Shown here: positions 6,506-57,138 of the stretch, piece after piece
Layout of the letters: each line of letters starts with the position of its first letter
Numbering within the stretch: position 1 is the first letter of the stretch
Assembly: GCF_016592575.1 (NCBI RefSeq)
Contig: NZ_AP017470.1
Span: 1,324,501-1,388,500, forward strand
DNA length: 64,000 nucleotides
Direction: 5' to 3'
From: Thermotomaculum hydrothermale
GTDB lineage: Bacteria; Acidobacteriota; Holophagae; Thermotomaculales; Thermotomaculaceae
The notes under the pieces: generated by a model
Told to the model about the DNA's origin: nothing
Database searches by the model: none
Seen by the model: only the letters and a program-made list of their open reading frames with translations
Program-made: the position numbers and the translations under genes

Positions 6506-7639
6506 ATGAGTGATTTAATTTTCACTCAATTTAAAGAATTTTTCAAGAAAATGTTGCAGGAAATGTTGTTGGAAGAGAGGGAAAGATACTTAAAAGAAGC
6601 AAGAGGCCAAACAAGGGCAAACGGTTATTATAAGCGAACGCCTAAAAGCTTTTTAGGAGAGATTGAATTGCAAATTCCAAGAACAAGAGACAGTCAGTTT
6701 AAGGTTAAATGGCTTCCCCAGAGAAAAAGGGTAATGTTTTTTCTTGAAGATATTGTGGAGGCAATGTTTATAGCAGGAGTATCCACAAGAAAGACAGCAG
6801 GGGTAATTAAAAATCTCATAGGGGCTAACATATCCGCTCAATATGTAAGCAGGATAAGTGAAATATCTGAAGAAGTAATTGAAAAATGGAAAAACAGCAG
6901 ATTAACAAAAACATACCCCGTGCTATACATAGACGCAACATACATTTCATTAAAAAGAGACAGTGTGGCAAAAGAGGCAGTATATGCAGTATTGGGCCTG
7001 TCTGAAGACGGTAAAAGAGAAATTTTAGGATACTTTCTTCCTGGAGGAAACGAAAAAGCATCCCTCTGGCAGGAAATATTCAGGGATTTAAAAGAAAGAG
7101 GCTTAAAAGGAGTAAAACTGATTATAAGTGATGATTTAACAGGTTTATCTGAAGCGATAAAAGAAGAATTTCCTGAGACTATGCACCAACTTTGTTGGTT
7201 TCACCTGAAAAGAAACATAAAAAACAGAGTAAGAAAACATCATTTTGAGAAAATAAAAGAAGAATTAGACGAGATAATGAAATGCGAAAGCAGGGAAGAA
7301 GGGAAAACCAAACTTCTTGCATTTATTGAAAAATGGAAAAAGATATACAGGTTTTTAAAAAACATTAAGGCAAAAGTTGATAACTATACATTCTTTCTCC
7401 TTGCCCCTGATGAGATAAGAAGTTACTTCAGAACAACAAACTGGATGGAAAGGTGTTTTAAAGAGTTAAAAGATTACATACGAATACGAGGATTTTTTCA
7501 AAATGAACAAAGTGCAGAGAAGTTTCTTTACATTTTCTTCACAGACAAGAATGAGAAGTATCAATCAAGGAGTTTAAGGTATTCTTCTTCTTTTAATCGC
7601 TTTTTTTCTTCTCTTTCCCGGGAGGCTTCCCATGCCTGA
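6506..7639 (+). CDS. IS256-family (Mutator-type) transposase, copy 1
   Basis: A 377-residue transposase. The DDE catalytic residues appear as YIDATYISLK (first Asp), IISDDLTGL (second Asp) and TNWMERCFKELK (Glu), with the family's CxxH motif LCWFHLKRN between the second Asp and the Glu. The N-terminal 130 residues (with TRANGYYKRTPKSFLGEIEL) form the end-binding region. The start is set by AGGAGG nine bases before ATG 6506. Full length and intact, identical to the copy at 55903-57036. Cut-and-paste or copy-out transposition through a circular intermediate is typical of the family. Confidence 0.96.
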   Translation: MSDLIFTQFKEFFKKMLQEMLLEERERYLKEARGQTRANGYYKRTPKSFLGEIELQIPRTRDSQFKVKWLPQRKRVMFFLEDIVEAMFIAGVSTRKTAGVIKNLIGANISAQYVSRISEISEEVIEKWKNSRLTKTYPVLYIDATYISLKRDSVAKEAVYAVLGLSEDGKREILGYFLPGGNEKASLWQEIFRDLKERGLKGVKLIISDDLTGLSEAIKEEFPETMHQLCWFHLKRNIKNRVRKHHFEKIKEELDEIMKCESREEGKTKLLAFIEKWKKIYRFLKNIKAKVDNYTFFLLAPDEIRSYFRTTNWMERCFKELKDYIRIRGFFQNEQSAEKFLYIFFTDKNEKYQSRSLRYSSSFNRFFSSLSREASHA

Positions 7640-42134: not shown

Positions 42135-42470
42135 TTAATATTTATGCTCTGAATGAATTGTACAGTAAAATTTTCCATCCTCTAAATAGTATTCTCCCCC
42201 TGCCGGACATTCAGGAATCTGCAAGCCGTACTCTTTTAATTGCTCAATTGTAACATCAGCAGGGTCATCTATCCCATGTGTTGACATATAGGTTTTAACA
42301 AAATCGTTTAGCATCTTTAAATTCTGCCTGCACGCCAACTCTTTTGTTTTGTCTATCTGAGCCTGCGCTTTTGCAGGAGGGTTACTCTTTGTACCTACAA
42401 AATCCCCTGCCCCTGTATAAACCAGATAACCGATAACCCCAACAACAATTAAAAGCACAATCAAACGCAT
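42135..42470 (-). CDS. Small single-pass protein with pseudopilin-like tail
   Basis: A 111-residue protein. The N-terminal helix MRLIVLLIVVGVIGYLVY (anchor or uncleaved signal) is followed by a soluble region with QNLKMLNDFVKTYM and a tail CPAGGEYYLEDGKFYCTIHS. That Cys-Pro-x-Gly-Gly-x-Tyr ... Cys-x-x-His tail is common at the ends of type II/IV pseudopilins, but the prepilin-peptidase motif (Gly-Phe-Thr-Leu-x-Glu) is absent. SD GGAGG precedes ATG 42470. It lies 98 bases after the last gene of the cytochrome operon and may belong to it or stand alone. Confidence 0.55.
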   Translation of the reverse strand: MRLIVLLIVVGVIGYLVYTGAGDFVGTKSNPPAKAQAQIDKTKELACRQNLKMLNDFVKTYMSTHGIDDPADVTIEQLKEYGLQIPECPAGGEYYLEDGKFYCTIHSEHKY

Positions 42471-42568: not shown

Positions 42569-43042
42569 TTACTGGAAAAATTTTTGAATATGCCCCAAAA
42601 TCTTTTTTTGTTTTTCTCTATTTCTTAAAATTTCTTTTATCAAATCTTCCATCGCATAAGGAATATCTTCAAATTCTTCGGGAAGTTGAGAATCAATTTT
42701 ATCAATCGGTTCTTTCATTTCAATAAGTTTGCAAATAATAGACTCAAACCTTTTAAAGAATTTCTCAATTTTTAACCTGAAGTAAGAGTAAACGAGAATT
42801 ATTAACGATATCAAAAACAAACTGCTAAATATGAAAAAAAACTCAAACCTTTTTCTAAAGTATAAAATAAGGTTGTCAAATCTAAAGTGGCTTTTAAATA
42901 GAAGATTATCTAAAGAAGGAAGAAGTTTAAAATAGTAGAACCAGAAATTCAACACTGCAATAAAAAAAACAACAACACCAAACATTATCAAAAACCTTTT
43001 TTGAAATTTTCTATCTATAAAATATTGCTTTCGCCTTCCCAT
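42569..43042 (-). CDS. Two-helix membrane protein with HAMP-like region
   Basis: A 157-residue protein with two helices (about 16-40 and 67-87) enclosing a short periplasmic loop, then a cytoplasmic part with KIEKFFKRFESIICKLIEMK, which resembles a HAMP linker, and a terminal coiled coil. There is no output domain. It is the last of the tightly packed cytochrome operon, 10 bases after the seven-haem gene, and has the same plan as the protein at 43855-44397. Small HAMP-type membrane proteins accompany cytochrome clusters in several metal-reducing bacteria; their task is unknown. Confidence 0.6.
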   Translation of the reverse strand: MGRRKQYFIDRKFQKRFLIMFGVVVFFIAVLNFWFYYFKLLPSLDNLLFKSHFRFDNLILYFRKRFEFFFIFSSLFLISLIILVYSYFRLKIEKFFKRFESIICKLIEMKEPIDKIDSQLPEEFEDIPYAMEDLIKEILRNREKQKKILGHIQKFFQ

Positions 43043-43052
43043 ACTCTCCCCC

Positions 43053-43865
43053 CTACAAATTATGACAGGATAAACACAGTTTACTTCCTCTATTACTCAT
43101 AACCAATTTACCTTTTAACTTTGAATAATGGTCATGGCAGGTTAAACATTCAACCTTCCCGTTAATCAATTTTATTTGAGGTGGCAAACTTTGAGGCGGA
43201 TGATAAAAATTAGGAGATTTACGATAAACCTCTTCATAATTCACCCCAATCGGGTGTGATAGCCCTATTCCTCCCAAATGATTCCATGATAACTGTGTTC
43301 CACCTCCGTCAGCATTTGATGCAATAACACCATTATGACAAGTCATACAATCCCTGGAACTTCTATCTAAAATTTTTAAAATCTCTGGTGAATCAAATTT
43401 TACATGAGCCACGCCAAAAGAAACACTATGAGAAGGTTCACAATTATTACAAATATCATCAACACTATGGCACTGGATACAAAATTCTTTCCCAGCTTTT
43501 TTATATCTTAAAAGATATGGATAATTGTCGGCTTTTCTTTTCTGTGTATCTTTCGAACCATAACTTTTATGAGCATAATGGCATGTTATACATGTCATTT
43601 TATTATTAAAAAGAGGAAACCTTTTTGGCAAAACCCTTTTTACAAAAAAATCTGACGGATGACTTCTTTTATCAATATCCTCGTGGCAATTTTTGCATAG
43701 AAAATCCGGAGAGCCTGTTAACATATTCGGTTCTTTTATTCCCAAATGGCAAAAAGAACATTCATTCTTAAAATTGTGAACCCCACCGGTAATAGAAAGC
43801 CCTCTTATAACCAATACGCATAAAATCAAAATAGCTAACAAAAAGGCATTTAATTTAAAGTTCAT
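43053..43865 (-). CDS. Multihaem c-type cytochrome, seven CXXCH motifs
   Basis: A protein of about 270 residues with a signal or anchor helix (about 6-24). Seven haem-binding motifs are visible: CSFCH, CKNCH, CITCH, CIQCH, CMTCH, CLTCH and CLSCH. Between the fourth and fifth sits CNNCEPSH, which looks like a decayed or modified site with His displaced by three residues. A periplasmic electron carrier is likely, and the N-terminal helix may leave it membrane-bound as a quinol-side entry point. ATG 43865 overlaps the preceding HAMP-type gene by 11 bases; a TTG three codons earlier is also possible. Confidence 0.85.
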   Translation of the reverse strand: MNFKLNAFLLAILILCVLVIRGLSITGGVHNFKNECSFCHLGIKEPNMLTGSPDFLCKNCHEDIDKRSHPSDFFVKRVLPKRFPLFNNKMTCITCHYAHKSYGSKDTQKRKADNYPYLLRYKKAGKEFCIQCHSVDDICNNCEPSHSVSFGVAHVKFDSPEILKILDRSSRDCMTCHNGVIASNADGGGTQLSWNHLGGIGLSHPIGVNYEEVYRKSPNFYHPPQSLPPQIKLINGKVECLTCHDHYSKLKGKLVMSNRGSKLCLSCHNL

Positions 43866-44397
43866 TTTTCTCAATTTCCTTTAATGAATTTACTAATATT
43901 TTTAATTTTTCTTTTTCGGTATCGGAAAGGGAAGCTTTTTGAGATTTAGACAAAATTTCCTCTATTTCGCACAACAATTTTCTCCTTTTTGATTCCCTGC
44001 TCAATAACACTGATAGATCGCTCTCAAGCGGTTTTAAAAAATCTGTTTTTCTAAATGCTATTCTCTCAATCTCTTTACCGTTTAAAAAATCTTTAAACAT
44101 CATTTTAACTCTATACATTGGACCTGAAATTTTGTGTGAAAACCTCAATGCAAGGAACAATATTAGAGACAGGCAAATAACAGTTTGAAGCAACAACGAA
44201 ATAAATACCATGTATAAAACCCGCTGTTTTATAATCGCAATTAAATGGAAAATACTGTGAAAATTACGTGGCAAAGGCTTGTCTAAAATCCCCCATATAA
44301 TTCCTATTCCAATTAAAGAACCTATAATTATTGATATAGAGGCTACAAGCACAAATAAAAATTCTTTTTCCACAGGTATCAACCTGTCATTTTTCAT
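43855..44397 (-). CDS. HAMP-domain inner-membrane protein
   Basis: A 180-residue protein with two helices (about 14-36 and 62-85) and a HAMP segment starting HKISGPMYRVKMMFKDFL, followed by a helical C-terminus. It has no kinase or methyl-accepting domain. The HKISGP(M/L)YR motif is shared by short HAMP proteins next to multihaem cytochrome genes in other anaerobes (from general knowledge). It overlaps its neighbours on both sides by 4 and 11 bases, so it is tightly coupled within the operon. Confidence 0.7.
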   Translation of the reverse strand: MKNDRLIPVEKEFLFVLVASISIIIGSLIGIGIIWGILDKPLPRNFHSIFHLIAIIKQRVLYMVFISLLLQTVICLSLILFLALRFSHKISGPMYRVKMMFKDFLNGKEIERIAFRKTDFLKPLESDLSVLLSRESKRRKLLCEIEEILSKSQKASLSDTEKEKLKILVNSLKEIEKNEL

Positions 44398-45332
44398 CTT
44401 TTACTCCGATATTTTTTCCATAAAACTTTATAGGATTCTTTATAACACCTCATTGCCAAATCAACTAAATTATTTTTCTCAAACTCATTACCTATTTTGT
44501 AAATAACGGTGAAAAATTCTGGCTCAAAATTTACATAATCCGCACATTTTTTTAACTGGTCTATATCGCCTGTTTTAAGATACTGTTCATAATAGTATGC
44601 AAGCATAAATCGTCTGGCCTTTTTCTGTTTAAACATGTTGGCAAATTTTTTCTCCGCCTCTCCAACTTTTCCGTCTAACAACAATGAATAGAACAAGCCT
44701 AAAACAACTCTTTTGTCACTTTTATCTGTTTCGTATAGTTTTGAATAAACTTTAATTGCTACATTATAGTTACCGTTAATAAACATAAAGAAAGCCTGCC
44801 TTATAGCTCTTTCTTTACTTTTTAAACTTTTTTTCTTTCTCATTTCTGCATAAATGTTTTTCGGCAATGAGTTAGATATTAAAGCATTTAAATAACTTTC
44901 AAAAACAATTTTCATATTAGGGATTACACCTGCAATTTCACCAATTAACTTCTGGTTCTCATTAACAAACAATATTGTTGGCAAAACAATAACTCCCATG
45001 CTGCCGTATAACTTCCTCTCATAATCTTCAACCACTTTGAAGTTTTTATACCTTTTCAACAAGACTTCCAATTGTTGACAATCCACATTTACAGTTTTCA
45101 CAAAGAAAACATTTATAACCCTTTTTTTTGTCAAAACATTGCCTATTGTTTTAACTACTTTTTCATTCTTTTTCTTTTTCCCGTTTAAGAAAACTATTAT
45201 TTTTTTCTCATTCACCAAAATCTTTTCATTTAAAGCATTTTTCTTAAACTTTCCTCCTATCGGCACTCCCCTTAGCGCAAAAGAATTTATGAAAAAAGTT
45301 AACAGTAAAAAAATAACTAAAAACTTTTTCAT
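44394..45332 (-). CDS. Exported thioredoxin-like protein with C-terminal TPR region
   Basis: A 312-residue protein with a signal peptide (to about residue 19). Residues 25-150 fit a ResA/TlpA-type thioredoxin fold, with a KIIVFLNGKKKK strand and the cis-Pro loop VIVLPTILFVNENQKLIGEI. The redox CxxC is missing: only one Cys (VDCQQ) occurs in the domain. The C-terminal half (170-305) is helical and TPR-like (AFFMFINGNYNVAIKVYSKL). It sits between cytochrome genes with 4-base overlaps and may act as an assembly or haem-delivery chaperone rather than a reductase. Confidence 0.7.
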   Translation of the reverse strand: MKKFLVIFLLLTFFINSFALRGVPIGGKFKKNALNEKILVNEKKIIVFLNGKKKKNEKVVKTIGNVLTKKRVINVFFVKTVNVDCQQLEVLLKRYKNFKVVEDYERKLYGSMGVIVLPTILFVNENQKLIGEIAGVIPNMKIVFESYLNALISNSLPKNIYAEMRKKKSLKSKERAIRQAFFMFINGNYNVAIKVYSKLYETDKSDKRVVLGLFYSLLLDGKVGEAEKKFANMFKQKKARRFMLAYYYEQYLKTGDIDQLKKCADYVNFEPEFFTVIYKIGNEFEKNNLVDLAMRCYKESYKVLWKKYRSKR

Positions 45333-46624
45333 TGATACTTCTCCGGATTTATTCTGTTATATTTATACCCTCTGTGACAACCTGGAGAACAGCTCCCTCC
45401 GTTTTTATTTATAGTGAAATTTATAGGAATGTCCCATTTACCGAAAGGAGTTTCTTCTCTAATATGTTTCGGCAATTTGCTTGCATGAGCCATATGACAT
45501 GCTCTACATGTTCTTCCTTTTTTCTTATGAACATGAACATAATGTAAATTCTCCGAGCCATTTCTAAAGTTGGTATCAACAGTTGTTTCTGGATTTTCCG
45601 CAAGATTGGCTTCATGACATTCAAAACACAAAGAGTACCTCTTTTTTTCATAAGGGGTATAAAATTTTTTCGGATACTGTGCTACAAGAATTTTGTAAAA
45701 GTTTGAGCCGTGTGGATTGTGACAACCGGCGCAATTACCCTCTCTAATAGGCCCATGTTTTTGTGGGTTTTCAGTAAGTATTTTAAATATATTATAATCT
45801 TTTCCGTCTGTACCTATAATAGGCTTATTATGACAGGATAAACATAAAGAAACCTGATTATCTTTAAGATTATTATCATATAGAGAACCGTGCGGGTCAT
45901 GACAGTTAACACAACCTTTTCCATCATTTACAGGCGGATGCTTATAAAGTGCCTGTTTCGCTTGGTCAACCAAATCACTATGGCATTCAGAACAGATTTT
46001 TTTAGGAGATGTTATTAACTGATATTTAAACGAACTTGCGTGGGGATTGTGACAGCCTGTGCAACCATCCTCCAAAGCAGTATGCATTTTTTTCCCAGAA
46101 TTAGTGTAATTTTTATCCGTATGGCAATTTACACAAAGTTGTTCTTGAGGAGATATTAAAAGGTATCTATTATCTGAAGAATGCGCATCATGACATATTG
46201 AACAGTTTCCAGAAATATTGGGGCCATGAATATACTTCCCCTCTTTTGTCTCCCTATCATGGCATTCAAAACAGGTAGCATCAACCCTTTTTGTCCTTAT
46301 TAGGGCTTTAGTATCTCCTCCATGAGGGTTGTGGCAAAAAATACACTTCTTCATTTTTAAAGCCCCGTGTAGAAATTTACCCCCTCCTCTATCTTCATGA
46401 CAATCTGTGCATACCTGATTTACATCTTTATAAAATAATTTAAACTCATGTTTTCCAGTTTTTTCATGGCAACTCTCACAATCTTCTTCAACCGGGGAGT
46501 GAATAATTTTAAATTTTTTAAAATCTGTGTGGCATTTGGATGTTACGCAATTTTTGTCAAAAGAGTAAGATGCAACTGAAAAAATAACCGCACAAACAAT
46601 CAGGATAATGCCCTTGAAATTCAT
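45329..46624 (-). CDS. Multihaem c-type cytochrome, 13 CXXCH plus two longer haem motifs
   Basis: A 431-residue exported cytochrome (signal peptide to about residue 22). I count 13 CXXCH motifs, many in the doubled CXXCHNPHG style, plus CVTSKCH (CX4CH) at the N-terminus and CSPGCH (CX3CH) near the C-terminus, so up to 15 haems. Repeats of about 30-45 residues suggest growth by duplication. GGAGGTGAT precedes ATG 46624. It is two bases after the 12-haem gene. Likely a periplasmic or outer-surface wire in the electron conduit. Confidence 0.88.
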   Translation of the reverse strand: MNFKGIILIVCAVIFSVASYSFDKNCVTSKCHTDFKKFKIIHSPVEEDCESCHEKTGKHEFKLFYKDVNQVCTDCHEDRGGGKFLHGALKMKKCIFCHNPHGGDTKALIRTKRVDATCFECHDRETKEGKYIHGPNISGNCSICHDAHSSDNRYLLISPQEQLCVNCHTDKNYTNSGKKMHTALEDGCTGCHNPHASSFKYQLITSPKKICSECHSDLVDQAKQALYKHPPVNDGKGCVNCHDPHGSLYDNNLKDNQVSLCLSCHNKPIIGTDGKDYNIFKILTENPQKHGPIREGNCAGCHNPHGSNFYKILVAQYPKKFYTPYEKKRYSLCFECHEANLAENPETTVDTNFRNGSENLHYVHVHKKKGRTCRACHMAHASKLPKHIREETPFGKWDIPINFTINKNGGSCSPGCHRGYKYNRINPEKYQ

Positions 46625-46625
46625 A

Positions 46626-48305
46626 TCACCTCCAATACCTCAATGGGTCATGATTTCTCCCATGACATTTTAAATAACAATAACCTCTTCCATTTATAAC
46701 TTCAAATTTTAAAATTCCACTGTTTGAGGGTGAAACAATATTTGTGTCAAAATTTATTAATCCTAAATGATCTCCGTCTGTGGCTGTTCCCTGCGGTACA
46801 CCATGGGGGTCATGACAAGCCGAACAGGGAATTTGCCCCCTAACAATATGCCTATAATGTAAACCAAAAGTGCTACTATTTGACAGAATCACATTGGGGT
46901 CGTGGCATTTAAAACACAATGCATAAGCTGAAGAAGAATAAGGCGTATAATCAGACATCTCGTACCTTTTCTCAAGTAAGTAAGGGTATATAGACCCGTG
47001 AGGACCCTCAGGGCCTGTTCCCCCGGTAGATACCGCATTATCATTGTTATGACAGTCTGTGCAATAAATAATAGATGTTTCAGAATAAGGGGGTTTTAAA
47101 GAAGGAACATTGTTGTTAGCCCCCTGACCCGCAATTGGATGGAAACTGGGGTTAGATGGGTTAATTGCCTGCCTTATATTGCTTGTATCAACCTGCCTAT
47201 TTGCAAAAGGGGCAATATTAATATTTAAATTCGTTCCATGGCATTTTATACACACCTGATATTGGTATAAAGCGGGGTTAACAGTATTTCCCGATAAATC
47301 AGCCCCCTTCACATTGGACAACCTGCCAGAAACATCAGGAGCAGTAGCAGTATTTGAGTTTACGCTATGTGGATTATGGCAATCTAAACACTCAACATGG
47401 GCAGGCATAGTAGTAATATTTTCGATAGGATCATGAATATCTGTATAAGCATACACATTATGCACACTTGATTTAGAAAATTCTGACATAATGTCTTTAG
47501 ATGCCACATTCCCATTGTGACAAACCGAGCAAACATTTTCTTCAGGGGTATTTGCAAGAAGAAAAGAATTGGAAGTGCCACCATGAGACCAATGACAATT
47601 CCAGCAGGCATTATCCGACACATTAGAGTAAAAATTTTTGGGCCAGGGATTGCTTCCCGCACCGTTCCACGAAGCAGTAGACAGGTTGTGTGAGCTTTGC
47701 TCAAAACCAGTTTTTGAATGACAGGTTTTGCATACTGCTGAATTAAGATTGGATTTTACTAAAAAATAGCCGTAAGTATCATCATGAGGGTTGTGGCAAG
47801 TTGTACATTGTACTTTCCCTGAGTGGTCCAATGCCACTTCATCTCCAACAGGGGGGTTATTTATTTCACTTCCCAATGTGGGGACAAAGGATACGGGATG
47901 GTCATTACGAAGGTCTGTGCCAAGGTTTGAACTTCCAGTTAACAACCCGTTATTTGTATTTGACATTGCAAAAGTAACATTGGGATTTTTCACAGAGCCA
48001 ACTGAAATTGTTCCATCATGACAACTTAAACAAACCCTTGATGTCCCGTCAGGTTGATTTATCGCAGAGGACAAAGTAGAACTGCCATACAATACATAAA
48101 CTGATGTAGTGCTATCCTTATTCCACAAAGGAACTTCATAATTAGAGTTGTGGGGAGTATGACAAAAAACACAAACCCTTGTAGTTTCCGTGGTGGTAAC
48201 ATTTCCTGTTCCAGATGCGGAAAGGTTATGTTTGGTATTTAAAATAGACGCATTAACTGAAATTGTGAAAATTATAACAAAAAAGCATAAATAAAATTTA
48301 CTCAT
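46626..48305 (-). CDS. Multihaem c-type cytochrome, 11 CXXCH plus one CX3CH
   Basis: A 559-residue exported cytochrome (signal peptide to about residue 18). There are eleven CXXCH motifs, and CYLKCH (CX3CH) forms a probable twelfth site near the C-terminus. The first 240 residues (CVFCHTPHN, PLWN, LCLSCHDGT-like blocks, LGTDLRNDHPVSF) are clearly homologous to the whole tetrahaem protein at 52936-53559. The remainder has Ser/Thr/Asn-rich spacers between motifs, as in outer-surface cytochromes. It overlaps the NHL gene by 8 bases. Confidence 0.88.
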   Translation of the reverse strand: MSKFYLCFFVIIFTISVNASILNTKHNLSASGTGNVTTTETTRVCVFCHTPHNSNYEVPLWNKDSTTSVYVLYGSSTLSSAINQPDGTSRVCLSCHDGTISVGSVKNPNVTFAMSNTNNGLLTGSSNLGTDLRNDHPVSFVPTLGSEINNPPVGDEVALDHSGKVQCTTCHNPHDDTYGYFLVKSNLNSAVCKTCHSKTGFEQSSHNLSTASWNGAGSNPWPKNFYSNVSDNACWNCHWSHGGTSNSFLLANTPEENVCSVCHNGNVASKDIMSEFSKSSVHNVYAYTDIHDPIENITTMPAHVECLDCHNPHSVNSNTATAPDVSGRLSNVKGADLSGNTVNPALYQYQVCIKCHGTNLNINIAPFANRQVDTSNIRQAINPSNPSFHPIAGQGANNNVPSLKPPYSETSIIYCTDCHNNDNAVSTGGTGPEGPHGSIYPYLLEKRYEMSDYTPYSSSAYALCFKCHDPNVILSNSSTFGLHYRHIVRGQIPCSACHDPHGVPQGTATDGDHLGLINFDTNIVSPSNSGILKFEVINGRGYCYLKCHGRNHDPLRYWR

Positions 48306-49230
48306 TTTCAGCCTCTACTCTCCAAATAGATATTCTTTGGTTCCATCTATCACATATATATATTAAACCATTTTGTGAAAAAATTCCAGATGGCATAACA
48401 AAACACTTTTCGCAATCCCCGTTTTTCCCAAAAAAAGTAAGAAAATTTCCGGTTTTATCAAATAGCTGAACATTGTCAAATACCACATCGGTTACAGCGA
48501 TAAACTTGCCGTTAACAACCGCAATCCCCTTAGGCTTTGAAAAATACCCGCTACCATCTCCTAATTTTCCAAATTTTCTTAAGAAATTCCCTTTAAGGTC
48601 AAAAACCTGCACTCTGAAATTTAAACTATCGAGAACAAATAAAAAATTACCGTCGGTAGAAATAGCAGTAGGGTAATTAAACTCTCCTTCTTTGATTCCT
48701 CTTTTTCCAAATGAAAAAATAAACTTTCCTTCAAGAGAATAACAAGCAATCTTATGATTTTCAGTATCTGTTAAAAACATAAAATTATCTACAATACAAA
48801 GTGATGTAAACCTTTTTGAATTATCGGCAATCAAAATTCTTGCGGAAGATAAGTCTTTATCAAACTTCAAAACACCCTTTCTAACTGAATCAACGATATA
48901 AATATTATCTTTTTTATCTATCCAGATACTTACTGGAGTAGCCAACGGAATTTTCCCTACTCGGGAAACAACTTTTTTTATTTCACCATCGGCAGTAAGC
49001 AATAAAACCATCCCTTTGTCAACATCAGAAACCACAACATCGCCATTTGACAAAACACCTATGGCAAACGGTTTGGCCTGTAGATCTCTTTTACCTAATA
49101 ACAATTTTTTTAAGGCATTGAAAAACCCTTTTTTCTCATGAGGATAAATATTTTTTACAAAGATGACAGAATTGGCAAATACAGTTAAATTAAAAATAAA
49201 AAACAATAAAAATATTTTTAAAAACTTCAA
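48298..49230 (-). CDS. Exported NHL-repeat beta-propeller protein
   Basis: A 310-residue protein with a signal peptide (about 1-19) and six NHL-type blades of about 42 residues. Typical turns are ISTDGNFLFVLDSLNFRVQVF, GSGYFSKPKGIAV and ENHKIACYSLEGKFIFSFG. Near the end is GKNGDCEKCFVMPSGI with a CxxC but no haem His. It is encoded between the outer-membrane barrel and the 12-haem cytochrome with overlaps on both sides. It probably acts as a periplasmic or surface docking scaffold for the conduit. The second NHL protein at 51747-52829 is a paralog. Confidence 0.82.
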   Translation of the reverse strand: MKFLKIFLLFFIFNLTVFANSVIFVKNIYPHEKKGFFNALKKLLLGKRDLQAKPFAIGVLSNGDVVVSDVDKGMVLLLTADGEIKKVVSRVGKIPLATPVSIWIDKKDNIYIVDSVRKGVLKFDKDLSSARILIADNSKRFTSLCIVDNFMFLTDTENHKIACYSLEGKFIFSFGKRGIKEGEFNYPTAISTDGNFLFVLDSLNFRVQVFDLKGNFLRKFGKLGDGSGYFSKPKGIAVVNGKFIAVTDVVFDNVQLFDKTGNFLTFFGKNGDCEKCFVMPSGIFSQNGLIYICDRWNQRISIWRVEAENE

Positions 49231-51152
49231 AAAAACCTCCTCACAGTAAACCTGTAATAATCATGTTTTTTATTTAGATAATTACTGTCATCTAAAATAT
49301 GCTCGTAAAAAAATTCAACTCTTAACTTCCTTACGGTTGCACTTAAATTACAAACCACACTCTCTCTTTTTCTAACAAAACCGGTCTGGTTATAATCTAA
49401 CTTTCTATAATTAAACTGAAAATTTATTCTCTGAAAAAAAGTACCGGATAAAAAAACAGAATTGTTTTTAAAATTTGAGAAGTAATCAATTGACAAAAAA
49501 TTTAAATTATACTTTAAAAAATAATATCCCACTATTATTCTTTGAAATCTGTAGCTTATTTTAAAGTTTTCAGTTTTAAATTTATATTCCGAAAAAGAAC
49601 CATAATATTTAGACCTGCTTTTTCTATAAAAAATTTTTTTGCTTTTAAACCCCCAAAACCTTTCCCTCAAAGTAAATTCTTCAAACGGAGTAATAATAAA
49701 ATCAGAAATGACAGTATTATTACTTTTTTTAATGGAGCCTCCTACAGTCAAATATTTAAAAATATCTATTGATAATGAATCCTCATAATTATGAATTAAA
49801 GTTTTATAATCAGGGAATTGATTATAATCAAAAACAATTAGAACCGTTTCACCCTCATCAATCCCACCTCCATATAACCTTGTTATGACAACTGCCGACT
49901 CGGAAACTATTAAATTATAATCAATACCTTCAATATATACTTTTGTCCCGTCTTTAGACAACACTTTAATACTGGATGGAACTATACCATTTTGACTAAT
50001 CCTGATTGTATCACCACTATCAAAAACAGCATACAACTGGGATAAAGCCAATTTACCTTCCGAAGAATTGGTAACATTTTGATACAATTGAATAAATTTT
50101 AAATTTATTCTGCCTGTTGGAATCCTCTTTTTATAATTCACCGAAAAAAAAGCAATGGAGCGGCTTATAGTATTTGAATCCGATGCTTCTTTTTGAAATG
50201 AAAATTTTGCAGACGATGTAAGGCTTAAGTATAAATTGTGCTTAAAATTAAAATCAATCGCAGAAAAATTTCTTTTTAGAGATTGTGTTTTAGAATTTAG
50301 AAAAGACAATGTTGATACAAAACTCAAATTTTTTCCAATAGGTTTTATATAATTTAAATTACCAGATTTTGTTTCTAAAAAACTCTGGCCATCAATTTTT
50401 CGAAAAGTCAAATGTGCATTAAGCAAACCAAACTCCTTGTTTTCAAATGCTTTATTCCAAACTACCATTGCATTAGTTGATATATAGTGTGTAAGAAATA
50501 CAGATTCATTATAATTTTTGTAAGTCGCTGACAGAGATAAAGAAGAAAATTTTTTATCTATCAAATCAGATTCAAATTTAAAATTATTAGAAGATTCACG
50601 CCTATCATAATAAAGTAACGATTGAGAAATCACCGAATTATGATTAAAATCAAAAACAAAAGGGATTTTTTTCAGATTAGAGATTATTTTAAATCCGTTA
50701 GTCTGAGCATAATTAAAAAATCTACCGTAATAAACTCTGGGATAAGTATTTTCATTATTTTTAAAATAAAGCATTAAATGAACTGGCTTCTTTTTCAAAA
50801 CAAAAAAATTGATATTATACCTGTTATTAAAATCCTTATACGCCTGTGAATCGGAAAATATCTCTGTTTTCGCATCGTTTAAAATCAAATTAGAGTCAAC
50901 TGAAAATTCTAAAAAATAGGGATGGTAAACATATCCTCTAAAATTTAATCCCAAAGAGTACTTTAAAAAATTCTCGCTATAATCATACGACAAAGAATCA
51001 CTTGCCTTACCTATCGTTTCGTCAAGAGATTCAGCTGAAGCGCTTAAATCACCTTGAAACCCATACAATTTCAACCATCTAATCTCTTGAGAATAGACAA
51101 CAGTAAAAAAAAGCAAGAAAAACCCTATCATTAAAATTTTTTTTTGCGTCAT
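49227..51152 (-). CDS. Outer-membrane beta-barrel (porin-like) protein of the cytochrome operon
   Basis: A 641-residue protein with a signal peptide ending at about residue 21 (VVYSQEI). The rest is alternating aromatic/polar strands typical of a large barrel, ending in RFTVRRFF with a terminal Phe as recognised by the BAM machinery. A soluble insert at about 375-450 (NGIVPSSIKVLSKDGTKVYI, LYGGGIDEGETVLI) may be a plug or surface module. It is placed between the five-haem lipoprotein and the NHL and cytochrome genes, as expected for the barrel of a porin-cytochrome conduit. The barrel call rests on pattern, not on a recognised family. Confidence 0.75.
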   Translation of the reverse strand: MTQKKILMIGFFLLFFTVVYSQEIRWLKLYGFQGDLSASAESLDETIGKASDSLSYDYSENFLKYSLGLNFRGYVYHPYFLEFSVDSNLILNDAKTEIFSDSQAYKDFNNRYNINFFVLKKKPVHLMLYFKNNENTYPRVYYGRFFNYAQTNGFKIISNLKKIPFVFDFNHNSVISQSLLYYDRRESSNNFKFESDLIDKKFSSLSLSATYKNYNESVFLTHYISTNAMVVWNKAFENKEFGLLNAHLTFRKIDGQSFLETKSGNLNYIKPIGKNLSFVSTLSFLNSKTQSLKRNFSAIDFNFKHNLYLSLTSSAKFSFQKEASDSNTISRSIAFFSVNYKKRIPTGRINLKFIQLYQNVTNSSEGKLALSQLYAVFDSGDTIRISQNGIVPSSIKVLSKDGTKVYIEGIDYNLIVSESAVVITRLYGGGIDEGETVLIVFDYNQFPDYKTLIHNYEDSLSIDIFKYLTVGGSIKKSNNTVISDFIITPFEEFTLRERFWGFKSKKIFYRKSRSKYYGSFSEYKFKTENFKISYRFQRIIVGYYFLKYNLNFLSIDYFSNFKNNSVFLSGTFFQRINFQFNYRKLDYNQTGFVRKRESVVCNLSATVRKLRVEFFYEHILDDSNYLNKKHDYYRFTVRRFF

Positions 51153-51154
51153 AT

Positions 51155-51784
51155 TTATATTGCCTTAAACTTTTTCATTATTTCCGGTTTAAGAAAAAAC
51201 TTGTTATTTTGAGTGTGAGGGTCATGGCATTTTAAACAACCCGCTCTATTTTTATGATCTTTAATTTTTCTTATTTCATCCGGCTCATGGCACTGAAAAC
51301 ACAATTTTTCATCAGTATACCGCAACAAGTAGGGATTTGGAGATTTGTGAGGATAATGGCAACTTAAACAGGTACCGGGTGCCACAGGGCCGTGAACAAA
51401 TTTTTGAAAAAACCTTTCTTTTTTGTGGCACTGGAAACAAAGTTCATTCTTTGGGACTACCAGAAAACTTTTTTTGTTCCTATCATGGCATTTCTCACAC
51501 TTTCTCTCACCAAACGGCTTGTGAATACTGACAGTTGCATTAGCATTTTTTTTTCTGTTTATAGCTGCAACATTACGCCTTTCTTCTGGAGAACCCTTTT
51601 CATTTTTGTTACTTCCTGACACTTTGTTACTTTCCGATGTTGTTTGATACTCGGGCACACCGTCAAAGAAAACTGCTGCCAGCTGCCTATTTGCCGCACA
51701 GCCACTTGTAATCAACAAAAAAACCAGAATAAAAAAATGAGTTATTTTATTTCTTATTTTTATACTCACCGAAAGCATACACAT
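51155..51784 (-). CDS. Five-haem cytochrome lipoprotein
   Basis: A protein of up to 209 residues. The signal peptide has a lipobox LITSGC near residue 29, so it is anchored in a membrane, probably the outer. Five CXXCH motifs occur in the C-terminal half: CEKCH, CFQCH, CLSCH, CFQCH and CLKCH, including the doubled type (CLSCHYPHKS). The 38-base overlap with the NHL gene makes the start uncertain; ATG 51784, ATG 51778 and GTG 51769 are all possible. Likely the periplasm-facing cytochrome that feeds the barrel. Confidence 0.83.
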   Translation of the reverse strand: MCMLSVSIKIRNKITHFFILVFLLITSGCAANRQLAAVFFDGVPEYQTTSESNKVSGSNKNEKGSPEERRNVAAINRKKNANATVSIHKPFGERKCEKCHDRNKKSFLVVPKNELCFQCHKKERFFQKFVHGPVAPGTCLSCHYPHKSPNPYLLRYTDEKLCFQCHEPDEIRKIKDHKNRAGCLKCHDPHTQNNKFFLKPEIMKKFKAI

Positions 51785-52829
51785 TTACCTTATTATTGCC
51801 AAATTGAGAAGTTATGAATAATAAATACTTCGGTTGAAACTGTTTATCAATATATGCCCTAAAATATTGAGGGATTTCATAAGAAATCTCTATGTCAGCT
51901 GGCAAATTTATACAGCCTTTGCAATTTCCGGAATTTAAAAAGAATAGCAAAAGCTTAAAGTCCTTATCAAAAACCTGAACATTTTCAAACGCTGCATCTA
52001 CCACATATATTCTTCCATCTTTATCCACTGCAATACCTTTAGGCCTTGCAAAAGTTCCTGGAATTGTCCCTATTTTACCGTAAGTAGCAATAAATTTCCC
52101 TTTCAAATCAAAAATTTGAAAACGGAAATTACTTGTTTCGCTAACATAAAGTTTATTGTTTACTACTTTAATATTAGTCGGGTGGAAAAGTTCCCCTTTT
52201 CCGCTGCCAGGTTTTCCAATAGTATACAACACTGTGCCATTTGTTTTATCAAACACGACAATTTTATGATTCCTAACATCACAAGCAAAAACCTTATCTT
52301 TGGTAACAGCCACATCAACGGGGGAAAATTTTGTCTTAACAAAATATGCTTTTACAAATCCCCCTTTTTGATTTAAGACAATTATTTCTCTCCTTATAAT
52401 ATCAGCAATATAAACATCTCCGTTTGTATCAATATCAATATTAACCGGCCTTCCAAGAACACCTGGAGCTTCACCTCTCCAGATTTCAAAAGTACCGTTT
52501 TCAAGATTTAATACAAAAAGCCCTGTCTTCATATCACATATAAACAATTTATTTTTAAACAATTTAACACCATAAGGTTTAATAATTGGAATACCTTTTT
52601 TTGCTTCTTCACCTAACACAAATTCAGCAAATTTGCTTTCTTTAACTTTAATATCATTTGTATTGGAAATCGTACATAAAAATTGATATTTAGGACTTGC
52701 CGGGAAAGGGGGATAAAAAACATGCTTAATCTTATTTATCTGCTCTTTTTTAGCCACATCAGGATGCTGCACACAAGAGATAAAACCAAAAAGCACAACC
52801 AAAAGAGTTAGATACAACTTTATTTTCAC
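51747..52829 (-). CDS. NHL-repeat beta-propeller lipoprotein
   Basis: A 360-residue protein starting at GTG 52829 with AGGGGG six bases upstream. Lipobox GFISC near residue 19. Six NHL-like blades follow, with turns such as IDIDTNGDVYIADIIRREI, GSGKGELFHPTNIKV and GTFARPKGIAVDKDGRIYV. A CxxC (NSGNCKGCINLP) occurs in the last blade at the same place as in the other NHL protein. First gene of the conduit operon, directly behind an extended -10 promoter. Confidence 0.82.
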   Translation of the reverse strand: MKIKLYLTLLVVLFGFISCVQHPDVAKKEQINKIKHVFYPPFPASPKYQFLCTISNTNDIKVKESKFAEFVLGEEAKKGIPIIKPYGVKLFKNKLFICDMKTGLFVLNLENGTFEIWRGEAPGVLGRPVNIDIDTNGDVYIADIIRREIIVLNQKGGFVKAYFVKTKFSPVDVAVTKDKVFACDVRNHKIVVFDKTNGTVLYTIGKPGSGKGELFHPTNIKVVNNKLYVSETSNFRFQIFDLKGKFIATYGKIGTIPGTFARPKGIAVDKDGRIYVVDAAFENVQVFDKDFKLLLFFLNSGNCKGCINLPADIEISYEIPQYFRAYIDKQFQPKYLLFITSQFGNNKVNVYAFGEYKNKK

Positions 52830-52878: not shown

Positions 52879-52903
52879 ATAAAATCGCAAAAAACTTAAA
52901 AAA

Positions 52904-52919
52904 CCCCGGGCAACCGGGG
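52904..52919 (-). terminator. Rho-independent terminator after the tetrahaem cytochrome gene
   Basis: Stem CCCCGG / CCGGGG with a four-base loop (52904-52919), followed on the minus strand by TTTTTTAAG. It separates the tetrahaem transcript from the conduit operon. Confidence 0.9.
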
Positions 52920-52935
52920 CTTGAAACACACAAAA

Positions 52936-53559
52936 TTATTTGTTATGACAAGTTAAACAAAGCTGGCTACCCGCATTGCTCTTGATCAACAACTTATTAA
53001 TTCCGTATGCATTATGAACTTCATGACAGGATGAGCACTCAACTTTGTTGCTAAAAAGCATGTCATTTGCAATTGTGCTTCCCAATCCACTATTTGTGGT
53101 AGCTGGGTCATGCAAACCGCCATCAGTTGTAGCCAAAGCAGTATCATAGGTAATTGAAATGGGGTGATCATTGCTAAGATCTGTTCCAAAGTTAGCATTC
53201 CCAGTAATATAATTTGTTCCAGTGGTAACACCACCAAAAGAGTCAAGCGCTACAGTTCCATCATGGCAGGACAAGCACAACTTAGACCTTCCGTCAGGCT
53301 GTCCTGGAGTAGCATTCAATGTACTTGAACTATAAAGTGTAAAAGTGGATGTAGTAACCTGGTGGTTCCAGAGCGGTGAATCCGTTACAGTAAGATCTGC
53401 GTTATGGGGAGTATGACAAACAATACAAATTTCCCCTGTAGTATTCCATCCGGCACCTGAAAAATCATGGGCACTCCCAACAATTCCCTGAGCACTAACT
53501 ACCATAGAAAAAACAAATGAAGCCATTATTGCCGCACCTAAAAAAAGTTTTTTAAACAT
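52936..53559 (-). CDS. Tetrahaem c-type cytochrome, candidate extracellular filament subunit
   Basis: About 207 residues from ATG 53559 (AGGAGG seven bases upstream; the frame is open further but without an SD). The signal peptide ends near VVSAQG, leaving a mature protein of about 183 residues. Four haem motifs: CIVCH, CLSCH, CSSCH and CLTCH, the last at the very C-terminus. The sequence style (ICIVCHTPHN, PLWNHQVTTSTFTLYSS, LCLSCHDGTVALDS, LGTDLSNDHPISI) is that of small secreted cytochromes of metal reducers, including filament-forming tetrahaem types such as OmcE; this likeness is from memory and not tested. It is flanked by its own near-consensus promoter and its own terminator. Confidence 0.85.
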   Translation of the reverse strand: MFKKLFLGAAIMASFVFSMVVSAQGIVGSAHDFSGAGWNTTGEICIVCHTPHNADLTVTDSPLWNHQVTTSTFTLYSSSTLNATPGQPDGRSKLCLSCHDGTVALDSFGGVTTGTNYITGNANFGTDLSNDHPISITYDTALATTDGGLHDPATTNSGLGSTIANDMLFSNKVECSSCHEVHNAYGINKLLIKSNAGSQLCLTCHNK

Positions 53560-53608
53560 CATAAAACCTCCTGACAAAACATTCTCACAAACATAAAGCC
53601 CCATTATC

Positions 53609-53636
53609 ATTATAATGATTTTTATCAAAATATCAA
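53609..53636 (-). promoter_or_regulatory. Near-consensus promoter for the tetrahaem cytochrome gene
   Basis: On the minus strand TTGATA (53631-53636), 16-base spacer, TATAAT (53609-53614), about 50 bases before ATG 53559. The leader also carries a perfect AGGAGG, so strong expression is expected. Confidence 0.8.
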
Positions 53637-55881: not shown

Positions 55882-57138
55882 GGTAATGTCAAGTTAATTG
55901 TGTCAGGCATGGGAAGCCTCCCGGGAAAGAGAAGAAAAAAAGCGATTAAAAGAAGAAGAATACCTTAAACTCCTTGATTGATACTTCTCATTCTTGTCTG
56001 TGAAGAAAATGTAAAGAAACTTCTCTGCACTTTGTTCATTTTGAAAAAATCCTCGTATTCGTATGTAATCTTTTAACTCTTTAAAACACCTTTCCATCCA
56101 GTTTGTTGTTCTGAAGTAACTTCTTATCTCATCAGGGGCAAGGAGAAAGAATGTATAGTTATCAACTTTTGCCTTAATGTTTTTTAAAAACCTGTATATC
56201 TTTTTCCATTTTTCAATAAATGCAAGAAGTTTGGTTTTCCCTTCTTCCCTGCTTTCGCATTTCATTATCTCGTCTAATTCTTCTTTTATTTTCTCAAAAT
56301 GATGTTTTCTTACTCTGTTTTTTATGTTTCTTTTCAGGTGAAACCAACAAAGTTGGTGCATAGTCTCAGGAAATTCTTCTTTTATCGCTTCAGATAAACC
56401 TGTTAAATCATCACTTATAATCAGTTTTACTCCTTTTAAGCCTCTTTCTTTTAAATCCCTGAATATTTCCTGCCAGAGGGATGCTTTTTCGTTTCCTCCA
56501 GGAAGAAAGTATCCTAAAATTTCTCTTTTACCGTCTTCAGACAGGCCCAATACTGCATATACTGCCTCTTTTGCCACACTGTCTCTTTTTAATGAAATGT
56601 ATGTTGCGTCTATGTATAGCACGGGGTATGTTTTTGTTAATCTGCTGTTTTTCCATTTTTCAATTACTTCTTCAGATATTTCACTTATCCTGCTTACATA
56701 TTGAGCGGATATGTTAGCCCCTATGAGATTTTTAATTACCCCTGCTGTCTTTCTTGTGGATACTCCTGCTATAAACATTGCCTCCACAATATCTTCAAGA
56801 AAAAACATTACCCTTTTTCTCTGGGGAAGCCATTTAACCTTAAACTGACTGTCTCTTGTTCTTGGAATTTGCAATTCAATCTCTCCTAAAAAGCTTTTAG
56901 GCGTTCGCTTATAATAACCGTTTGCCCTTGTTTGGCCTCTTGCTTCTTTTAAGTATCTTTCCCTCTCTTCCAACAACATTTCCTGCAACATTTTCTTGAA
57001 AAATTCTTTAAATTGAGTGAAAATTAAATCACTCATTGGTGGTACCTCCTTTCGGGAATTTTTCTTCTGAGGTTATTTTAACCTCTCCTTCCCGAAAGGA
57101 GTTTTTTTTCTCCCTGACACAATTAATGTTACACTGCC
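55882..57138 (-). mobile_element. IS256-family insertion sequence, copy 2 (1257 bp)
   Basis: Same length, ends and transposase as the copy at 6404-7660, in the opposite orientation. Bounded by perfect TTTTATTT duplications. It interrupts the last gene of the pil operon. Identity of the overlapping non-coding frames in both copies indicates near-identical DNA. The leader hairpin is at 57046-57101. Confidence 0.96.
55903..57036 (-). CDS. IS256-family transposase, copy 2
   Basis: A 377-residue protein identical to the transposase at 6506-7639, with the same DDE residues and CxxH motif and with the same SD-hiding hairpin before its ATG. Intact and presumably active. It is transcribed in the same direction as the interrupted pil operon, so read-through from pil is possible and makes the leader hairpin relevant. 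Confidence 0.96.
   Translation of the reverse strand: MSDLIFTQFKEFFKKMLQEMLLEERERYLKEARGQTRANGYYKRTPKSFLGEIELQIPRTRDSQFKVKWLPQRKRVMFFLEDIVEAMFIAGVSTRKTAGVIKNLIGANISAQYVSRISEISEEVIEKWKNSRLTKTYPVLYIDATYISLKRDSVAKEAVYAVLGLSEDGKREILGYFLPGGNEKASLWQEIFRDLKERGLKGVKLIISDDLTGLSEAIKEEFPETMHQLCWFHLKRNIKNRVRKHHFEKIKEELDEIMKCESREEGKTKLLAFIEKWKKIYRFLKNIKAKVDNYTFFLLAPDEIRSYFRTTNWMERCFKELKDYIRIRGFFQNEQSAEKFLYIFFTDKNEKYQSRSLRYSSSFNRFFSSLSREASHA

Follow-up and report, generated by a model that had tools for sequence, protein, structure and literature searches.

An OmcE-type cytochrome locus with a predicted outer-membrane conduit in Thermotomaculum hydrothermale and its recurrence across phylum-level groups of bacteria

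A stretch of 64,000 nucleotides from Thermotomaculum hydrothermale (contig NZ_AP017470.1, positions 1,324,501 to 1,388,500; hereafter the window, to which all coordinates refer unless stated otherwise) carries a minus-strand operon of ten open reading frames (42569-52829), neighbouring frames overlapping or almost abutting, which a preliminary description made from the sequence had singled out as a candidate for an undescribed trans-envelope electron conduit. The locus is read here, with a probability of roughly 0.6, as encoding an OmcE-type extracellular filament together with an outer-membrane conduit and the assembly parts that anchor and feed the filament. This reading is built on protein families, folds, gene order and motif conservation, and the localisation of the proteins, their polymerisation, their contacts and the direction of electron flow are deduced. 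The supposed conduit is thereby recast as an unnamed, widespread OmcE-type nanowire locus with a conduit, a compact and conserved parts list in which an OmcE-type subunit goes together with a conduit like MtrAB.

All ten genes lie where the preliminary description had placed them (Table 1), and its estimate of nearly 40 heme sites agrees with a motif count of 39 for the operon. Its outline of the operon was nonetheless incomplete, the tetraheme gene Z directly upstream of the NHL lipoprotein gene A having been missed; adding this gene gives a unit of 11 genes and 43 heme sites. Chance is excluded as the origin of the motifs, because exact matches number 48 in the window against 2.2 ± 1.4 in shuffled sequence. 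An Rfam scan of the window detected no stable RNA element.

By its sequence, Z is a member of the OmcE family that keeps all eight heme-ligand histidines. A phmmer search of PDB sequences placed the OmcE filament 7tfs first (E = 4.2e-30 over residues 28-230) and another solved multiheme cytochrome, 9yuq_N, second (7e-27), with no match beyond these two at E < 10. Four CXXCH motifs and four distal histidines are invariant in an alignment of 28 homologues, which include Geobacteraceae OmcE-type proteins, and Z is the sole stand-alone OmcE-type gene of the 2.3 Mb genome. The start listed for the frame, TTG 53628, was rejected in favour of a later one because a TATAAT -10 box, the AGGAGG ribosome site and both candidate ATG codons fall within the longer TTG frame. 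In two family mates (L038, 6465-7184; L043, 13083-13838; locus coordinates) the tetraheme gene is adjoined by another OmcE-like gene, which encodes a fifth CXXCH.

Putative expression signals flank Z. The promoter-like site ahead of it is the joint best of the scanned region, a call made by consensus only in a region where the total of promoter-like matches is near chance. Behind Z, an intrinsic terminator consists of the stem AAGCCCCGGTTGCCCGGGGTTT and a T run (52922-52901). As the fold of the whole spacer between Z and A is not exceptional (z -0.85), the terminator call rests on the stem, the T tail and their recurrence in the relatives L038, L043 and L044, which have GC-rich hairpins with T tails in the equivalent spacer. 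Terminator and promoter-like site together suggest a transcript level for Z above that of the remaining operon genes. An excess of subunit over machinery is usual for filament subunits, and with a conserved terminator behind it and a promoter-like and a ribosome site before it, Z would show the expression pattern expected for a structural subunit placed ahead of its machine.

The second OmcE relative is part of E, the 12-heme cytochrome, whose heme count the preliminary description had given correctly while leaving its OmcE module unrecognised. The N-terminus of E matches OmcE 7tfs by sequence (2.5e-32 over residues 9-198), and residues 25-197 of the E model align with OmcE at a Z-score of 8.4, with a root-mean-square deviation of 3.8 over 159 residues and 36% identity. 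Among E homologues the ligand histidines are invariant or almost so. The boundary between the two parts of E is supported by several Geobacteraceae, which encode the halves as separate adjacent genes. E is proposed to act as filament base or adapter, because OmcE subunits, like those of OmcS, are linked by a histidine from the neighbouring subunit coordinating a heme (PMC9473688) and E keeps the histidine needed. In the Geobacteraceae loci L187-L194 the split E (an OmcE-like tetraheme gene and an octaheme gene), together with an NHL gene, heads a type IV pilus/type II secretion-like operon containing T2SSF, T2SSE, PilM and PilN and adjoining clpP, clpX and lon.

There is good support for an electron conduit across the outer membrane, since an MtrB-like barrel is encoded beside MtrA-like cytochromes. 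The 641-residue protein C, already taken for a barrel in the preliminary description, is predicted as one by AlphaFold2, with a small inserted beta domain at about residues 369-443. When C was compared with solved structures by VIA-align, MtrB (6r2q_B) came first with a Z-score of 17.9, the next reaching 15.2; this likeness is at the level of the fold only (root-mean-square deviation 8.8 over 425 residues, 9% identity), barrels resembling one another, and a Foldseek search by itself ranked numerous unrelated barrels, the first place of MtrB emerging only on re-examination by VIA-align. C has no family match in Pfam or NCBIfam at E up to 1, and its profile search against PDB sequences returned nothing meaningful, while the iterated barrel profile collected 102 barrel matches in the relatives' loci fetched for the synteny comparison below. 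The distant Acidobacteriota matches centre on C residues 300-474, and the inserted domain may be the best conserved part. B and F each independently pick MtrA, the partner of MtrB in the same complex, as best solved match (6r2q_A, a chain labelled 'Cystathionine beta-synthase' in the PDB although entry and fold are those of the Mtr complex), B at 2e-14 and F at 5e-14 over residues 48-309. B also has a sub-threshold match to TIGR03507 (6e-6, 25 of 209 bits), and F matches TIGR03508, the DmsE family, at 1.5e-43, which is under the family cut-off. The resemblance to porin-cytochrome conduits seen earlier is borne out by these three proteins.

The arrangement recurs far outside the window. A scan of 84,980 species for relatives of E yielded at least 543 stretches encoding them, 80 of which were fetched, and synteny was counted in the 39 E loci with 8 kb of flank on both sides. 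A barrel of the C family is present in 36 of these, at least one NHL gene in 37 and two in 32; an OmcE-like gene accompanies 31, a polyheme gene abuts the barrel in 30, and F and the H-I-J cassette occur in 14 and 3, respectively. The core order, a unit of OmcE - NHL - cytochrome - barrel - NHL - 12-heme, was found in at least 14 phylum-level groups, including Bacteroidota, Planctomycetota, Verrucomicrobiota, Gammaproteobacteria, Nitrospirota and Acidobacteriota. Three cultured strains are among the carriers: Carboxylicivirga marina N1Y132 (L108), Aestuariivivens sediminis S-DT1-15 (L133) and Desulforhopalus sp. IMCC35007 (L082). The full order Z-A-B-C-D-E-F-H-I-J is kept in two family mates, and Z-A-B-C-D-E-F in two further Acidobacteriota, one of them with G; an E of 93% identity belongs to the metagenome-assembled genome Acidobacteria bacterium S012_49. 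A tree of E over the 14 phylum-level groups clusters strongly, if imperfectly, by phylum (22 label changes, compared with 47 after shuffling), which fits an old system mostly inherited within phyla, with some transfer. A literature search of partial coverage found no description of the present gene order, though part of the system may already be described. The system is no one-off, its order recurring across many phyla.

The remaining operon genes encode accessory parts. The two NHL propellers announced in the preliminary description, A and D, both match Pfam NHL, and orthologues of A occupying the equivalent slot share 45-52% identity. The label of G as a thioredoxin-like/TPR protein has weak Pfam matches behind it but no CXXC motif; G is present in the relatives L044, L070, L103, L113, L114 and L122, mostly near the 15-heme gene or OmcE, and is a probable assembly factor. 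H, I and J form an optional three-gene cassette (HAMP - 7-heme - HAMP) outside the core. Its flanking proteins had been described as HAMP-type, which has indirect support from some homologues (Pfam HAMP matches in 3 of 12 for H, best 0.004, and 7 of 12 for J, best 6e-7), whereas the window's own H and J have no Pfam HAMP match, and HAMP as an established feature of these two was rejected. A HAMP-like - 7-heme - HAMP-like cassette also recurs with E loci in several phyla (L069, L084, L086, L088, L102, L107, L134 and L169).

Table 1. Genes and expression signals of the locus, in the direction of transcription (window coordinates).
Feature	Description	Position	Strand	Details
Promoter-like site	TTGATA-16-TATAAT ahead of Z	53609..53636	-	11/12 consensus matches
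Z	OmcE-type tetraheme cytochrome, putative nanowire subunit	52936..53562	-	start ATG 53562 or 53559 behind AGGAGG
Terminator	intrinsic, between Z and A	52901..52922	-	9-pair stem, 6 G-C pairs, then T run
A	NHL beta-propeller lipoprotein	51747..52829	-	Pfam NHL 5e-16, lipobox FISC
B	pentaheme lipoprotein cytochrome adjoining barrel	51155..51784	-	5 CXXCH, N-terminal TSGC read as lipobox
C	outer-membrane beta-barrel, MtrB-like	49227..51152	-	AlphaFold2 mean pLDDT (predicted local distance difference test) 83, ~28 long strands, C-terminal Phe
D	second NHL beta-propeller	48298..49230	-	Pfam NHL 4e-18, equivalent slot in relatives
E	12-heme cytochrome, OmcE-like module at N-terminus, fused to eight-heme part	46626..48305	-	11 CXXCH + 1 CX3CH
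F	15-heme MtrA-like cytochrome	45329..46624	-	13 CXXCH + 1 CX3CH + 1 CX4CH
G	thioredoxin-like/TPR protein without CXXC	44394..45332	-	Pfam thioredoxin 0.023, TPR 0.09, both marginal
H	membrane protein with HAMP-like segment	43855..44397	-	GP and R..D motif conserved across 12 homologues
I	7-heme cytochrome, membrane segment at N-terminus	43053..43874	-	7 CXXCH, invariant in 12 homologues
J	membrane protein with degenerate HAMP-like segment	42569..43042	-	homologue alignment

Most likely, the locus provides respiratory electrons with a way out of the cell. From the quinol pool these would pass to cytochromes of the periplasm, with I, anchored beside H and J, as a possible intermediary in genomes that have the cassette, and B and/or F would thread the barrel C and carry them across the outer membrane. 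At the outer mouth of the barrel they would be handed to E and onward into the Z filament, Z being made in excess and polymerising outside the cell, with the OmcE module of E joined to the first Z subunit by the inter-subunit histidine-heme bond used within OmcE filaments. The propellers A and D may serve as docking or assembly scaffolds, holding surface parts or guiding assembly, G may act as an assembly factor, and H-I-J may form an optional inner-membrane module supplying or sensing electrons.

Several observations weigh against the filament-plus-conduit assignment. Filament formation by the locus proteins is a prediction, none of them having been seen as a filament, and barrel C could be a secretion channel instead of a conduit. 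AlphaFold confidence in the OmcE module of E is low, with block means of 35-76 up to residue 150. F is missing from most relatives and B from several gammaproteobacterial loci. Distribution is patchy, as the closest genus-mate (G205) and a family mate (G220) are without the locus and E occurs in 27 of 344 Acidobacteriota genomes. In Geobacter, OmcE has been reported as not essential for current or for Fe(III) oxide reduction (PMC13194489).

The main rival takes the barrel and propellers for an apparatus that secretes and assembles the filament, the barrel being an export channel and not an electron conduit. Its model is osc, the OmcS-companion operon of Geobacter (Shen et al. 2025, as cited in PMC13194489 and PMC12977616), for which folding by OscH, secretion by OscEFG and control of morphology by OscD are proposed in the account of PMC13194489. 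The osc barrel and C are faintly linked, a hidden Markov model search giving no match at E 10 and hhalign a probability of 90% (1.6e-6 over 177 columns). Against an export channel speak the best structural match of C, which is MtrB, the MtrA-like cytochromes encoded alongside and the absence of a prolyl isomerase from the operon; this reading is somewhat unlikely, though channel and conduit roles could both hold in one complex. Slightly less probable is a porin-cytochrome conduit without a filament, in which Z and E would be soluble or surface-bound terminal reductases or shuttles that never polymerise. The MtrAB-like core is indeed present, and membership of the OmcE family is no proof of polymerisation, so that Z remains a putative filament protein; yet Z keeps all OmcE ligand histidines, including those outside CXXCH, the terminator and promoter-like site flanking it suggest a high-copy structural subunit, and duplicated Z genes adjoin the locus in relatives. 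Least probable of the three is inward flow, with the same hardware importing electrons that Fe(II), minerals or a partner cell supply: its carriers are found in many phyla, but the sequence fixes no direction and the NapC/NrfH-like tetraheme beside an octaheme cytochrome elsewhere in the genome is compatible with outward flow.

Further features surround the locus. Two other heme loci of the same genome, at 771-786 kb and 1597-1610 kb of the genome (L217 and L218), contain a NapC/NrfH-like tetraheme paired with an octaheme cytochrome, and an octaheme protein whose neighbour is a secreted protein of 620 residues. Upstream of the operon, at 55903-57036, lies a Mutator-family transposase that is probably a multicopy insertion element, since 15 bases of its sequence are found again at 6965 and at several further genome positions. 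Just downstream, a small protein (42135-42470) combines a hydrophobic N-terminal segment with a CPAGG motif; it has no real family match and is possibly pseudopilin-like.

The filament and conduit parts suggest, tentatively, a self-contained nanowire kit whose carriers span at least 14 phylum-level groups and whose built-in base would be E, its OmcE module standing as first subunit and its eight-heme tail plugged into the barrel conduit. If E is a true base, it would be, to our knowledge, the first anchor to be identified that ties a cytochrome nanowire to a porin-cytochrome complex. The cluster could show how cytochrome wires attach to cells, and E, in appearance half filament subunit and half polyheme relay, makes the question of anchoring experimentally direct. 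A recent review calls the secretion, anchoring and wiring of nanowires to the cell speculative or unresolved (PMC12307469). The spread over phyla, if the reading is true, would take nanowire-based electron transfer far past the usual metal reducers.

The mismatch with the Mtr and Omb/Oma/Omc layouts noted in the preliminary description is confirmed, the locus following neither. With MtrCAB of Shewanella (6r2q) it shares a barrel closest in fold to MtrB and two cytochromes closest in sequence to MtrA, but these have 15 (F) and 5 (B) hemes, not 10, and a filament subunit, two propellers and E stand in place of an OmcA/MtrC decaheme. No OmcA/MtrC-family surface decaheme cytochrome was found at the locus beyond the sub-threshold TIGR03507 match in B, and a plain Mtr assignment was rejected on this ground and for the lack of a curated porin family match for the barrel. 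The nearest published conduit concept, compared by description only, is OetABI of the sulfate reducers partnering anaerobic methanotrophic archaea (ANME), in which a porin, a periplasmic cytochrome and an extracellular lipoprotein cytochrome likewise lie beside putative nanowire cytochromes, these being of the OmcS/OmcX type (PMC10553843). In Geoalkalibacter ferrihydriticus, a locus mentioned in passing and suggested for Fe(II) oxidation (Ga0056053_02426-02431) combines an OmcE homologue, two NHL proteins and an MtoA homologue, with neither a barrel nor a 12-heme OmcE fusion reported (PMC12016550).

On the filament side stand OmcE itself and its Geobacteraceae loci. The OmcE filament of Geobacter sulfurreducens (7tfs) is tetraheme, as is Z, which keeps its ligand histidines, and E carries a module of the same family; the Geobacteraceae omcE-type loci likewise have, as neighbours of the OmcE gene, an NHL gene and one for a large protein presumed to lie in the outer membrane. 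They differ in their 11- and 8-heme cytochromes, in having no E gene that was seen there and in their outer-membrane protein, which has no significant similarity to barrel C (hhalign 2%). The osc operon, located with an OmcS query identical to 6ef8 over all 407 residues that matched 17 of 39 Geobacteraceae genomes, comprises in the Geobacter locus L209 OmcS, a YncE-type propeller, a barrel, a prolyl isomerase, 26- and 16-heme cytochromes and NHL genes. A plain osc assignment was rejected, OmcS having no match in the window's whole genome at E 0.01 and Pfam detecting no OscH-like rotamase domain, as present in L209, in the ten operon proteins; the hexaheme OmcS filament family, the prolyl isomerase, the YncE-type propeller and the 26-/16-heme cytochromes are osc's own. 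Both nonetheless unite in one operon a filament cytochrome, one or more beta-propellers, an outer-membrane barrel and very large polyheme cytochromes, and the precedent of OmcS filaments encoded with a propeller, a proposed secretion channel and large cytochromes supports, by analogy, the assignment of the present locus to an OmcE-type filament, for which its genes provide a signature by which this type of locus can be told apart from osc and Mtr in genomic and metagenomic data.

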